Part shown: positions 4,731 to 37,380 of the stretch, piece by piece
Layout: the number at the start of each line of letters is the position of its first letter
Position numbering within the stretch: the first letter of the stretch is position 1
Assembly (NCBI RefSeq): GCF_017312725.1
Contig: NZ_BOPO01000050.1
Coordinates: forward strand, 1-64,000
DNA: 64,000 nucleotides
Direction: 5' to 3'
DNA from: Actinocatenispora comari
GTDB lineage: Bacteria > Actinomycetota > Actinomycetes > Mycobacteriales > Micromonosporaceae
The notes under the pieces: generated by a model
What the model saw: only the letters and a program-made list of their open reading frames with translations
The model's database searches: none
What the model was told of the DNA's origin: nothing
Program-made: the position numbers and the translations under genes

Positions 4731-5750
4731 ATGCACATGCCGACCTGCCCGAACGGACACACCTCGGCCGACGCCGACTACTGCGACGAGTGCGGCGCGG
4801 CGATCGGTGGCGCGGCGGCGTCCTCCGGGGCGGCCACCGCGGTGGCGACCGAGGAGCCGGCCGCGCCGGCCACCCAGACCTGCCCGCAGTGCGGCGCGAC
4901 CCGCACCGGGCGGTTCTGCGAGGTGGACGGGTACGACTTCGTCGCGGCCGACCTGCGCGGGGACCAGCCGGCCACCGGCGCCGGCGGTTCCGGTACCGAG
5001 GCCGGCTCGGCGACCACGGCGCCGGCCGGCCCGTCGCCGTCCGGGCCGGCGGGCGACGACGCACCGACCGGTACCGCGGCGGAAGGCGACGCGCCGGACG
5101 CGCCGGACGCCGGTACCGCCGGTGGCAGCGGCCCCACCGGCAAGGATCCCGATCCTGCCGAGCCCGGCTCGGGCGGCGCGGGTACCGACAGTGCCGGCTC
5201 GGACAGCGCCGGCCCGAACGGTGCGGGTACGAACGGTGCGGGCACGGGCGGTGCCGGCTCGGACAGCGCCGGCTCGGATCGTGCCGGCTCGGACGGTGCG
5301 GGTACGGGCGGTGCCGGTTCGGCGGGGGCGGACGGTGCGGCGGCGGGGACGCGGTGGCGGCTCGCGGTGCGCGCGGACCACGACTACCACCTGCGGGTGC
5401 TCGCGATGAACGGTCCGGACGCGGAGCAGATGGAGTTCCCGAAGTTCGCCCCGGAGCGCCAGTTCGCGCTGCAGGACGACCAGGTGCTGGTGGGTCGGGC
5501 CAGCCGGTCCCGCGGCATCGAGCCGCAGATCGACCTGACCGGTCCGCCCGAGGACCCGGGGGTGTCCCGCTCGCACGCGATGCTGGTGCACGGCACCGAC
5601 GGCTGGTCGGTGGTCGACCTGGACTCCGCGAACGGCACCTACCTCAACGACTCGGACGAGCCGATCGCGGCCAACCAGCCGGTACCGCTGCGCGACGGCG
5701 ACCGGATCCACGTCGGCGCCTGGACCACCCTGCAGCTGATCACCGCATGA
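4731..5750 (+). CDS. FHA-domain protein with N-terminal zinc ribbons
   Basis: This is a 339-residue phosphothreonine-binding adaptor. Two short zinc-ribbon motifs lie at the N-terminus (CPNGH...CDEC and CPQCG...C), followed by a low-complexity Ala/Gly/Ser/Thr/Asp linker of about 150 residues. A complete C-terminal FHA domain covers roughly residues 250-339, with the signature VGRASRSR, VSRSHAML and DSANGTYLN. FHA domains read phosphothreonine, so it is a likely PknG substrate or recruiter, as GarA is for mycobacterial PknG (known family behaviour; inference here). ATG codons at 4731 and 4737 are both possible behind GAAAGG at 4721. The gene lies 76 bp after the VWA gene. Confidence 0.86.
   Translation: MHMPTCPNGHTSADADYCDECGAAIGGAAASSGAATAVATEEPAAPATQTCPQCGATRTGRFCEVDGYDFVAADLRGDQPATGAGGSGTEAGSATTAPAGPSPSGPAGDDAPTGTAAEGDAPDAPDAGTAGGSGPTGKDPDPAEPGSGGAGTDSAGSDSAGPNGAGTNGAGTGGAGSDSAGSDRAGSDGAGTGGAGSAGADGAAAGTRWRLAVRADHDYHLRVLAMNGPDAEQMEFPKFAPERQFALQDDQVLVGRASRSRGIEPQIDLTGPPEDPGVSRSHAMLVHGTDGWSVVDLDSANGTYLNDSDEPIAANQPVPLRDGDRIHVGAWTTLQLITA
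5185..5340 (+). repeat. Degenerate 15-bp coding repeat (Gly-Ala-Gly-Thr/Ser-Asp type) in the FHA gene
   Basis: Near-identical short units such as GGTGCGGGTAC, GACAGTGCCGGCTCG and GGCGGTGCCGGTTCG alternate here. They encode about ten imperfect pentapeptides of the type GAG[ST][DGN]. They form the flexible linker between the zinc ribbons and the FHA domain and are likely to vary in length by slippage. Confidence 0.7.
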
Positions 5751-32971: not shown

Positions 32972-33003
32972 GGCCGGGGTACCCCAGTGCGGGTGCCCCG
33001 GCC
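32972..33003 (+). terminator. Terminator of the sugar importer operon
   Basis: The 13-bp stem GGCCGGGGTACCC / GGGTGCCCCGGCC (one T-G wobble) has a 6-nt loop and is followed by the T-rich GTTTCGTTG. This is the most canonical intrinsic terminator in the window. Confidence 0.85.
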
Positions 33004-33025
33004 GTTTCGTTGCCCTGACCGCCGT

Positions 33026-33050
33026 GTTTGTCCCCGTTCATCCGGGGAAC
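33026..33050 (+). promoter_or_regulatory. Possible SigB/SigF-type promoter of otsA
   Basis: GTTT (33026-33029), a 15-bp spacer and GGGAAC (33045-33050) approximate the stress sigma factor consensus GTTT-N14-17-GGGTAY. It lies about 100 bp before the start codon. Stress control would suit trehalose synthesis, but the -10 hexamer is imperfect. Confidence 0.3.
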
Positions 33051-33149
33051 GCTCAGGGTGAGATTCACACTACCGGCGGCTGAGCCGGGCGGCCGCCGGT
33101 GATTCAGTAGGCTCGATGTCTGTCCGGTTCGGCGGCGGTAGGAGGCGGC

Positions 33150-34631
33150 GTGTCGACAGCCAGCCCGTTCGTGGTGGTGGCCAACAGACTTCCGGTCGAC
33201 GAGGTGACCACGCCGGACGGGAGCCGGGAGTGGCGCCGCTCCCCCGGCGGGCTGGTCACCGCGCTGCACCCGATCATGCGGGCCGAGCACGGCACCTGGC
33301 TGGGCTGGGCCGGCGGCACCGGCCCGGCCGCCGACGAGTTCGAGCTCGACGGGATGCGGCTGCACCCGGTCGCGCTGTCCGCGCAGGAGTTCGAGAAGTA
33401 CTACGAGGGCTTCTCCAACGCCACCCTGTGGCCGCTGTACCACGACGCGGTCGAGCCGCCGGTCTACCGGCGCAGCTGGTGGGACAACTACCGCGAGGTC
33501 AATCGGCGGTTCGCCGCGGAGACCGCGAAGGTGGCCGCCGAGGGTGCGGTGGTGTGGATCCAGGACTACCAGCTGCAGCTGGTGCCGGCGATGCTCCGGG
33601 AGCTGCGGCCCGACCTGCGGATCGGCTTCTTCCTGCACATCCCGTTCCCGCCGGTGGAGCTGTTCATGCAGATGCCGCGGCGGGTGGAGATCATGCAGGG
33701 GCTGCTCGGCGCCGACCTGGTCGGCTTCCAGCGCCCGCTCGCCGCACAGAACTTCCTGCGGCTGACCCGCCACCTGCTCGGGCTGCACCCGAAGGGCCCG
33801 GAGGTGCGGGTCGACGACCGCACCGTGCGGGTGGCGGCGTTTCCGATCTCCATCGACGTGGGCGAGATCGAGCGGCTCGCCGCGAGCGAGTCGGTCCGGG
33901 CCCGCGCTGCTGAGATCCGGGCGGAGCTGGGCAACCCGAAGCACATCATCCTGGGCGTCGACCGGCTCGACTACACCAAGGGCATCGACCGGCGGCTCAA
34001 GGCGTTCCGGGAACTGCTGCAGGAGGGCACCCTCGCGGTACCGGACGTGGTGATGGTCCAGGTGGCGACGCCCAGCCGGGAGCGGGTGGCGCACTACCAG
34101 ACCCTGCGCGACGCGGTGGAGCTGCAGGTCGGGCGGATCAACGGCGACTACGGCAAGGTCGGCGTGGCGGCGGTGCACTACCTGCACCAGTCGGTCGACC
34201 GGGCGGAGCTGACCGCGCTGTACTGCGCGGCCGACGTGATGATGGTGACGCCGCTGCGGGACGGCATGAACCTGGTCGCCAAGGAGTACGTGGCGGCCCG
34301 GGTGGACCTCGGTGGCTCGCTGGTGTTGTCCGAGTTCGCCGGCGCCGCCTCCGACCTGCGCCAGGCGTACCTGGTGAACCCGCACGACACCGACGCGCTC
34401 AAGGACGGGCTGGTGCGCGCCGTCCGGGTCGACCCGACCGAGTCGGCGCGCCGGATGCGGGCGATGCGGCGGTTCCTGCGCGGGCACGACGTCGACCACT
34501 GGGCCCGCTCGTTCCTGACCGCCCTCGGCGTACCGGAGGCCACCGACGCCCTCGCCTCGGTGGTGACGCCGGCGTCGCCACCCGGTCGTACCCGCCGGCC
34601 CGGCCGGCGCATCGACGGCTCCACCCGCTGA
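33150..34631 (+). CDS. otsA: Trehalose-6-phosphate synthase (GT20)
   Basis: This 493-residue glycosyltransferase makes trehalose 6-phosphate from UDP-/GDP-glucose and glucose 6-phosphate. Diagnostic motifs are the N-terminal VVVANRLPV, the loop [48 protein letters not shown] and [12 protein letters not shown]. The length is typical. The GTG start is behind TAGGAGG. The next enzyme of the pathway, OtsB, is encoded downstream after an unusual 196-bp spacer containing tandem micro-ORFs. Confidence 0.96.
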
Positions 34632-34675
34632 CGTGCGTCCCCGAAGGCAGCCGAGCACCGACCCGCGGAGGCAGC

Positions 34676-34717
34676 ATGAGCACCGACGACGCGATCACCG
34701 CAGCGGAGGCGGCATGA
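34676..34717 (+). CDS. Micro-ORF 1 (13 residues)
   Basis: MSTDDAITAAEAA with ribosome site GCGGAGG 5' of its ATG. Its TGA overlaps the next ATG (ATGA at 34714). It begins 44 bp after the otsA stop. Confidence 0.55.
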   Translation: MSTDDAITAAEAA

Positions 34718-34755
34718 GCACCGACGACGCGATCACCGCAGCGGAGGCAGCATGA
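34714..34755 (+). CDS. Micro-ORF 2 (13 residues)
   Basis: Same peptide as micro-ORF 1, but in a different reading frame because 38 is not a multiple of 3. It has its own GGAGG, and its stop overlaps the next start. Confidence 0.55.
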   Translation: MSTDDAITAAEAA

Positions 34756-34793
34756 GCACCGACGACGCGATCACCGCAGCGGAGGCGGCATGA
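34752..34793 (+). CDS. Micro-ORF 3 (13 residues)
   Basis: Same peptide, third reading frame, with its own GGAGG. Its ATGA overlap is with micro-ORF 4. Confidence 0.55.
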   Translation: MSTDDAITAAEAA

Positions 34794-34831
34794 GCACCGA
34801 CGACGCGATCACCGCAGCGGAGGCGGCATGA
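34790..34831 (+). CDS. Micro-ORF 4 (13 residues), coupled to otsB
   Basis: Same peptide. Its TGA (34829-34831) overlaps the ATG of the OtsB-GH15 gene at 34828, so a terminating ribosome is positioned to start otsB. Confidence 0.55.
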   Translation: MSTDDAITAAEAA

Positions 34832-37380
34832 GTACGGTGGCGCCGACCGAGCCGTTGGACGCGGCGTTGCGGGCGACGCTGGGCCGGCTGGCCCGGGTAC
34901 CGCAGCTGCTGGTGGCGGTGGACTACGACGGCACGCTGGCGCCGATCGTGGACGACCCGGCGGCGGCCCGGCCGCTCCCGGAGGCGGTGACGGCGCTGCG
35001 CGCGCTGGCCGAGCTGCCGCAGACGAAGGTCGCGGTGGTGTCCGGCCGGTCGCTGCGCGACCTCGCCGCGCTGTCCCGGCTGCCCAGCGAGATCCACCTG
35101 GTCGGCAGCCACGGTTCGGAGTTCGACGTCGGGTTCGTGCAGCAGCTGTCCGCGGAGGCGAGGCAGCTGCGCACCACGCTGCAGCAGCAGGTGGAGCGGA
35201 TCGCCGCCGGGCAGCCGGGGGTACGGCTGGAGGCGAAGCCGGCGAGCGTCGCGGTGCACACCCGGACCGCGGGCGACGAGGTCGCGGCGGGCGTGAACGC
35301 AGCGGTACGGTCCGGTCCGGCGATGCTGCCCGGGGTGCACGTGACCGAGGGCAAGAAGGTGATCGAGCTGTCGGTGGTGCACACCGACAAGGGCACCGCG
35401 CTGGACACGCTGCGCAGCCGGCTGGGCGCCTCGGCGGTGCTGTTCGTCGGCGACGACGTCACCGACGAGAACGGGTTCGCCCGGCTGCGCGGCCCGGACG
35501 TCGGGGTGAAGGTCGGTTTCGGCGACACCCGGGCGACCCACCGGGTGGCCGACCCGGTCGAGGTGGCGAAGCTGCTCGCGCTGGTGCTCGACATCCGCCG
35601 CCGCTGGCTGTACGGGGAGCGGGCGGTGCCGATCGAGCGGCACTCGATGCTCGCCGGCGGCGACAACCTGGCGCTGGTCACTCCGGACGCCCGGATCACC
35701 TGGCTGTGCCATCCGCGGCCGGACTCGGCGGCGATCTTCGCCGACCTGCTCGGCGGCAGCCCGGCCGGGTACTTCGGGGTCGCGCCGCAGCGCGGCGGCC
35801 TGCCGCTGGGCCAGAAGTACCTGGGTGGCTCGATGACGGTGCAGACGCGCTGGTCCGGGCTGACCGTGACCGACTGGCTCGATCCGACCGGGCCGGCGAA
35901 CCGCACCACCCTGGTCCGGCAGCTGACCGGCACGGTCACGGTCCGGGTGCAGTTCGCGCCGCGGCCGGAGTTCGGTCAGGTGGCGGTGCGGCTGCAGCCG
36001 CTGGGCGACGGGCTGGTGATGCTCGGGTCCAACGAGCCGGCGGTGCTCTACTCCCCCGGCGTCGACTGGGACATCGTCCAGGAGGGCGAGCACGACACCG
36101 CGCACGCGCTGATCGACCTGCGGGCCGCGGGCGGCAGCGCGGTGCTGGAGCTGCGCTGCGGTACCGACAACCTCGATCCGGCGCCGCGGCCGGTCGAGCA
36201 GCGGGCCGACGAGGCGGCGACGCAGTGGCGCGGCTGGCTGGACGGGTTGCGGCTGCCCGGGGTGAGCACCGAGCTGGTGGCGCGCAGCGCGTTGACGCTG
36301 CGGGCGCTGACCTACCGGCCGACCGGGGCGATCCTCGCCGCCGGTACCTGCAGCCTGCCGGAGGACCTCGGCGGGGTGCGCAACTGGGACTACCGGTACT
36401 GCTGGCTGCGCGACGCGGCGCTGGCGGCCCGGGCGCTGGTCGACCTGGGTTCGGTCGACGAGGCGGAGGGGCTGCTCGCCTGGACGGCCGGGGTGATCGA
36501 GCGCACCGGCGGGCATCCGGAGCGACTGCACCCGCTGTACACGGTGGAGGGGCAGACGCTGGGGCCGGAGGCGGTCATCGACACGCTGCCCGGGTACGCC
36601 GGGTCGCGGCCGGTGCGGGTCGGCAACGCGGCGAACAAGCAGCTGCAGCTCGACGTGTTCGGGCCGATCGCCGATCTGGTCGACGCGGTCGCGCAGCGCC
36701 GCGGCGCGGTCAGCGACTTCGACCGCGAGGTACTCGACGCGATGGTGGACGCGGTCGCCCGCCGCTGGTTCGAGCCGGACCACGGCATCTGGGAGCAGCG
36801 CCAGCCGCCCCGGCACCACGTGTACTCGAAGGTGATGTGCTGGCAGACGGTCGACCGGGCGCTGAACGTGGTGGCCCGACACGGCCTGCCGGAGCGGCCG
36901 GACTGGGTGGAGTTGCGCGCGGCGATCGCCGAGAACGTGCTGGAGTACGGGTGGAACGAGCAGGTCGGCGCCTACACCACCGCGTACGACGGGACCGACC
37001 TGGACGCGGCCTCGCTGTGGGTGGGGCTGTCCGGGCTGCTCGCCGACGACGACCCGCGGTTCCTGGCCACGGTGCTCGCGATCGAGGCGGAGCTGCGCAG
37101 CGGCCCGGTGGTCTACCGGTACCGCTCGGACGACGGGATGCCCGGCACCGAGGGCGGTTTCCACGTGTGCACCGCCTGGCTGATCGAGTCGTACCTGCGC
37201 ACCGGGCGCCGGGCCGACGCGGAGGAGCTGTACGGGCAGTTCGTGGCGTGCTGCGGGCCGACCGGGCTGCTGCCCGAGCAGTACGACCCGCTGGCCGAGC
37301 GGGGCCTCGGCAACCATCCGCAGGCGTACAGCCATCTGGGGCTCATCCGCTGCGCGCTGCTGCTGGACTCCCGGCGCTGA
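34828..37380 (+). CDS. otsB: Trehalose-6-phosphate phosphatase fused to a GH15 glycoside hydrolase
   Basis: This is an 850-residue two-domain enzyme. Residues of about 1-250 are an HAD phosphatase of the OtsB family with the nucleophile motif DYDGTLAP (32-39), VVSGRSL and FVGDDVTDENGF, which converts trehalose 6-phosphate to trehalose. From about residue 260 a GH15 glucoamylase/trehalase-like domain follows, with LPEDLGGVRNWDYRYCWLRDAAL around the catalytic acid and GTEGGFHVCTAWLIESYL near the C-terminus. Actinobacterial GH15 members include trehalases, so one chain may both make and cleave trehalose. Translation start is coupled to the micro-ORF array. The first product depends on OtsA upstream. 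Confidence 0.92.
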   Translation: MSTVAPTEPLDAALRATLGRLARVPQLLVAVDYDGTLAPIVDDPAAARPLPEAVTALRALAELPQTKVAVVSGRSLRDLAALSRLPSEIHLVGSHGSEFDVGFVQQLSAEARQLRTTLQQQVERIAAGQPGVRLEAKPASVAVHTRTAGDEVAAGVNAAVRSGPAMLPGVHVTEGKKVIELSVVHTDKGTALDTLRSRLGASAVLFVGDDVTDENGFARLRGPDVGVKVGFGDTRATHRVADPVEVAKLLALVLDIRRRWLYGERAVPIERHSMLAGGDNLALVTPDARITWLCHPRPDSAAIFADLLGGSPAGYFGVAPQRGGLPLGQKYLGGSMTVQTRWSGLTVTDWLDPTGPANRTTLVRQLTGTVTVRVQFAPRPEFGQVAVRLQPLGDGLVMLGSNEPAVLYSPGVDWDIVQEGEHDTAHALIDLRAAGGSAVLELRCGTDNLDPAPRPVEQRADEAATQWRGWLDGLRLPGVSTELVARSALTLRALTYRPTGAILAAGTCSLPEDLGGVRNWDYRYCWLRDAALAARALVDLGSVDEAEGLLAWTAGVIERTGGHPERLHPLYTVEGQTLGPEAVIDTLPGYAGSRPVRVGNAANKQLQLDVFGPIADLVDAVAQRRGAVSDFDREVLDAMVDAVARRWFEPDHGIWEQRQPPRHHVYSKVMCWQTVDRALNVVARHGLPERPDWVELRAAIAENVLEYGWNEQVGAYTTAYDGTDLDAASLWVGLSGLLADDDPRFLATVLAIEAELRSGPVVYRYRSDDGMPGTEGGFHVCTAWLIESYLRTGRRADAEELYGQFVACCGPTGLLPEQYDPLAERGLGNHPQAYSHLGLIRCALLLDSRR

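Follow-up and report, generated by a model that had tools for sequence, protein, structure and literature searches.

The micro-ORF array between otsA and otsB is probably a local expansion of a short, dispersed and apparently mobile actinobacterial repeat

The window, by which we mean the whole 64,000-nucleotide stretch of DNA analysed, carries a row of very short open reading frames (micro-ORFs) in the interval from otsA to otsB. The features of this region, all on the + strand, are:

33150-34631, + strand: otsA, trehalose-6-phosphate synthase, the upstream gene, with its stop TGA at 34629-34631 (ORF list; Pfam Glyco_transf_20, E 7e-149)
34653-34675, + strand: partial degenerate unit without a start codon, which gives the first micro-ORF its GGAGG (sequence; the same remnant is present in sister species G002, L045)
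34676-34713, + strand: repeat unit 1; micro-ORF MSTDDAITAAEAA at 34676-34717
34714-34751, + strand: repeat unit 2; micro-ORF at 34714-34755; synonymous change at 34748
34752-34789, + strand: repeat unit 3; micro-ORF at 34752-34793
34790-34827, + strand: repeat unit 4; micro-ORF at 34790-34831, whose stop overlaps the otsB start
34828-37380, + strand: otsB, the downstream gene, fused to TREH_N and GH15 (ORF list; Pfam Trehalose_PPase, TREH_N, Glyco_hydro_15)

The four 38-bp units stand head-to-tail at 34676-34827, with starts at 34676, 34714, 34752 and 34790 and the otsB start at 34828. Every unit begins ATGAGCACCGACGACGCGATCACCGC and encodes the 13-residue MSTDDAITAAEAA. The TGA of each micro-ORF lies at +1 of the following ATG, and the last TGA overlaps the otsB ATG at 34828. 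GGAGG is found at 34667-34671, 34705-34709, 34743-34747, 34781-34785 and 34819-34823, in each case four bases before the next ATG. TRF reported a tandem repeat at 34665-34832 (period 38, 4.4 copies, 97% matches, score 322, no indels); this score and the zero matches for control patterns rejected a chance or low-complexity origin. The sequence-only reading, an earlier account made from the letters of the window, had described four 38-bp repeats, each with a GGAGG, an ATG and the same 13 residues, and stop/start overlaps running up to otsB; the sequence, TRF and the coordinates bear this out. Its "few" synonymous changes reduce to one, 34748 G to A (GCG to GCA), and its degenerate fifth copy upstream is present, though partial and without a start codon. 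The coupled ladder that it placed between otsA and otsB is joined by overlap to otsB and not to otsA: the otsA stop lies 44 nt before the first micro-ORF ATG, so that the chain is open on the otsA side. The otsB product is an 850-aa fusion of trehalose-phosphatase, TREH_N and GH15 domains, and its phosphatase and following part have matches in most sampled genera of the window's family. Rfam covariance models gave no match up to E = 1 across 33000-36500, and the array RNA folded no better than shuffles (z +1.5). Elsewhere in the window, at 5164-5322, there is a 15/30-bp tandem repeat of 5-10 copies with a different unit.

It had been proposed that the array arose at otsA/otsB as a filter or delay for ribosomes that sets the OtsA:OtsB ratio, its copy number serving as a tunable switch. 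Exact hand-overs and a GGAGG in every unit agree with this proposal. However, an ATGA hand-over needs 2 mod 3 spacing, so tandem duplication of a 38-bp unit starting with ATGA keeps the ATGA automatically, and its preservation in the otsA/otsB array alone is therefore no sign of selection. More telling is that a 39-bp period is found in those other arrays of the family that lack the hand-over. Close relatives do differ in copy number, which bears out that part of the proposal: the junction holds four units in the window genome (G000), two in G002 (L045) and one plus a remnant in G003 (L044), while no close ortholog of the window OtsB was found in the G001 assembly. This variation fits a switch, but it equally means that copy number is not conserved, and other genera have no array at all. 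Several of them in the same family (L287, L288, L291, L305) have a direct ATGA or GTGA overlap of otsA and otsB, suggesting that the array was probably added at an already coupled junction.

The repeat array is not an otsAB device. Its unit occurs at about 12 loci of the window genome, and the family to which it belongs has the conserved core GMC GAC GYN NTY NNN NCM GCG GAG G and the consensus unit ATGAnCACC GMC GAC GYN NTY NNN NCC GCG GAG GCG GC, then ATGA. According to Pfam assignments of the neighbouring genes, arrays or single units of the window genome adjoin an oligopeptide ABC ATPase (L002), an OppC-like permease (L004), an ABC ATPase (L005), a branched-chain amino acid permease (L006), an ABC permease (L007) and a LuxR-type response regulator (L008); more copies are found at L003 and on contigs C13, C45, C115 and C130. 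Most of the family lies at junctions of unrelated, translationally coupled genes, and some copies lie inside housekeeping genes. This placement, with insertion at overlaps that existed before the repeat, gives no support to the view that the array exists to set OtsA:OtsB, and we regard a ladder evolved for that purpose as unlikely.

All four genomes examined within the genus carry the family. In G001 it is seen chiefly inside genes or at gene ends rather than in junction arrays (L092, L096, L100, L112, L116, L120, L121). We scanned the collection with a two-unit pattern, allowing any period from 35 to 42. Among the matches listed were Pseudonocardia, Amycolatopsis, Prauserella, Gandjariella, Geodermatophilaceae and other actinobacterial MAGs; the remaining matches listed look chance-like. 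Ten genomes from the scan contained 3-25 exact cores each, versus 0 for the reversed-pattern control. Exact junction units were present in 14 of 399 genomes of the window's order, spread over 7 genera, with 0 control matches. The matches of genome G761 fall at contig positions identical to those in Amycolatopsis saalfeldensis, so that Pseudonocardiaceae must be one carrier family in this sample; within the window's own family, the window genome alone gave a match. Presence throughout that family was rejected, the BLAST matches being weak and exact units being absent outside the genus in the sample. The related arrays in other actinobacterial MAGs (L179, L207, L221) have 42-bp or 36-bp periods, both divisible by 3. 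One array lies on a Pseudonocardia alaniniphila plasmid (L145). Phage or plasmid carriage was also considered and gave no blastn match in either collection, where the low-complexity filter could hide some; five viral-contig matches were without the unit architecture. At one operon start, behind a promoter-like region, the units make up a single in-frame leader ORF that ends in ATGA with the first gene, and their number is 4 in G002 (L126 1905-2205, reverse strand), 2 in G000 (L029) and 1 in G003 (L132).

The flanks of filled sites were then used as probes against the sister species. The L004 array of G000, 116 bp long (38+39+39) with ATGA at both ends of the insert, is absent from G002 and G003, where flanks of 99% and 91% identity close up on one ATGA. 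At L047, G001 and G002 have no insert and retain the GTGA. Inside genes, in-frame inserts were found in the NAD kinase (117 bp, 3 x 39) and HisC (36 bp) of G002 and in the methylmalonyl-CoA mutase of G001 (36 bp), and there are other intragenic copies in CTP synthase (G003) and in IleS and PurB (G001). Thus, wherever an insertion could be sized, the added length was 2 mod 3 between genes, as with the 116 bp of L004, and divisible by 3 within genes (117 and 36 bp). By parsimony, the direction at these sites would be gain rather than loss. Neither a transposase nor convincing terminal inverted repeats nor a mobilisation mechanism was found for the repeat family, so the case for its mobility rests on dispersal and empty sites. 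The GCCG...CGGC unit ends are too short to convince as transposon ends.

To quantify the spacing, we scored the reading frame at 105 unit-to-unit steps. Fifty-nine steps were 2 mod 3, all of them 38 bp, and 58 of these had an NTGA hand-over from their own frame into that of the next unit. Another 45 were 0 mod 3 (39, 36 or 42 bp), and 43 of them were stop-free. Spacing of 1 mod 3, the class permitting neither NTGA hand-over nor in-frame read-through, occurred at one step in 105. Because steps within one array are copies of each other, the fair count is per array: with more loci added (n = 73), 43 arrays had a hand-over at every step, 25 were open at every step and 5 deviated. G+C by codon position gave an independent reading of the flanking-gene frames: in 52 of 58 cases the left gene was in the frame that an overlap with the first unit requires, and in 54 of 60 the right gene was in the predicted one. 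Thirty-three elements lay away from junctions, and 7 of these, all intragenic, were antisense to the host gene, in one common frame. Selection on coupling is the presumed cause of the frame rule. The comparison with relatives that the sequence-only reading had called for gave a variable copy number and a hand-over geometry kept across the family. L062 in G002 departs from this geometry. There, at 1500-1720, the ortholog of L008 has four to five units versus one, of which one is 35 bp (2 mod 3); the final hand-over ATGA is mutated to ATGG, and the last micro-ORF extends past the response regulator gene start. The persistence of this array despite the lost final ATGA counts against the frame-preserving mobile-repeat reading.

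The same 73 arrays bear on the peptide, which had been suspected of being irrelevant. They contain 50 distinct core peptides, and entropy by codon position was 0.60, 0.46 and 0.50, that is, variation was not concentrated in third positions, although this estimate is biased by the search pattern. The 13-residue peptide is without sign of selection and is probably irrelevant. A functional product amplified for dosage would agree with the identical peptide in all four window units and with the D/A- and E/A-rich peptides that recur in the family; given this diversity, the fusion of units in 39-bp arrays and the other frames read in intragenic copies, we consider it highly improbable. Hardly credible, too, is a reading in which the otsB start region was simply duplicated in tandem on the spot, no mobile family exists, and the likeness elsewhere is convergence of SD-plus-ATGA junctions. 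In its favour, actinobacteria of high GC content commonly have GGAGG and ATGAGCACC-like starts, and the otsB start ATGAGTACGG is similar to the unit start. Against it, the conserved core, located between start and SD, is found again at unrelated genes and, in antisense, inside genes; the reversed control pattern gave 0 matches; and the filled and empty sites are clean. The empty sites and intragenic copies already contradict this reading.

The explanation that we consider very probable is that a short (38/39 bp), dispersed and mobile actinobacterial repeat has expanded locally to give the array, and that ribosome continuity decides which arrays survive. Between genes, the repeat would insert at stop/start overlaps, ATGA or GTGA. 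Since the unit has its own Shine-Dalgarno sequence and spans NTGA to NTGA, the upstream gene would end on a start codon and the downstream gene would be entered by a terminating ribosome as before, making the insertion near-silent. Its cost would be low, and copies would persist, because these two properties keep the downstream start within the terminating ribosome's reach; likewise, the repeat would fit between linked genes because the unit closes one reading frame exactly at the start of the next. Slippage or recombination would multiply the unit in tandem, and the resulting minisatellite would be tolerated because ribosomes still pass from gene to gene. Surviving arrays would be those with continuous translation, either as 38-bp steps with NTGA hand-over or as 39-bp stop-free read-through, and inside genes only in-frame copies would survive. 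At otsA/otsB, the four 13-codon ORFs would pass ribosomes on to otsB. The first micro-ORF is not overlap-coupled to otsA, which speaks against the explanation at that end.

The family-wide hand-over geometry suggests that ribosomes probably pass through the arrays to the downstream gene. A ribosome relay into otsB, as the sequence-only reading had it, is therefore likely, whereas the ratio-setting purpose attached to it finds no support. Some ribosome loss is expected at each step of serial reinitiation, and this would favour a ladder effect; such an effect may be a by-product of insertion. A graded, putative effect on OtsB, or a tuning of OtsA:OtsB, is possible and is not needed by the explanation. 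Tentatively, and with more doubt than confidence, the picture could be widened to a multi-family mobile minisatellite that lands on stop/start overlaps, whose 38-bp hand-over and 39-bp read-through forms let it persist silently at gene junctions as well as within leader ORFs and essential proteins, and whose copy number acts as a translational dial in some operons, e.g. otsAB.

The family provides a large natural data set on how translational coupling constrains insertions, and the same junction with 1-4 units in sister species offers ready-made serial termination-reinitiation experiments. The arrays may also serve as typing loci, and they can lead annotation to call wrong starts and stops.

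Translational coupling by ATGA overlap (termination-reinitiation) has been studied in pairs of ordinary genes (PMC6728339, PMC10666635). The present junctions have the same stop/start geometry, and ribosomes would be expected to transfer by the same route, but serial 13-codon ORFs stand between the genes. Rickettsia palindromic elements, about 150 bp long and palindromic, are described as small dispersed repeats lying in frame inside unrelated metabolic genes (Ogata et al. 2000, in PMC10969869). As far as that account goes, the in-frame insertions in coding genes are alike (here NAD kinase, HisC, CTP synthase, IleS, methylmalonyl-CoA mutase and PurB), whereas the present unit is 38/39 bp, non-palindromic apart from its GCCG...CGGC ends, and located mainly at gene junctions.

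The core sequence strings were absent from open-access paper text. Nevertheless, the statement of the sequence-only reading that no system of this form had been described does not hold, because MIRUs have been. In a 2025 review (PMC12548453) that draws on Supply et al. 1997, they are treated as apparently mobile repeats inserted at start codons, each with an ORF inside that is coupled to the host gene through a -4 overlap; PMC4213456 cites the same work. As that review outlines them, both are short dispersed repeats, often in tandem, at junctions of co-directional genes, with variable copy number; in both an internal ORF is coupled by the -4 (NTGA) overlap, the otsA side of the window array being the exception; and both show signs of mobility or recent insertion, here from filled and empty orthologous sites with the direction set by parsimony. 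By contrast, the present units are 38/39 bp versus 77 and 53 bp at senX3-regX3 (PMC4213456), and the carriers found are other actinobacteria, not M. leprae or the M. tuberculosis complex, from which alone MIRUs are reported there. PMC12548453 and PMC4213456 give neither a 38/39 frame switch nor in-frame intragenic copies as MIRU features; both belong to the present family. Our best reading is that the family would work like MIRU; since it differs in unit length and host range, and was compared by description rather than by sequence, it is a MIRU-like variant and not a MIRU. This points to mobile repeats of a MIRU-like, coupling-preserving kind occurring beyond the mycobacteria; the present family, apparently undescribed, seems to be a frame-adaptive variant of that kind outside them.
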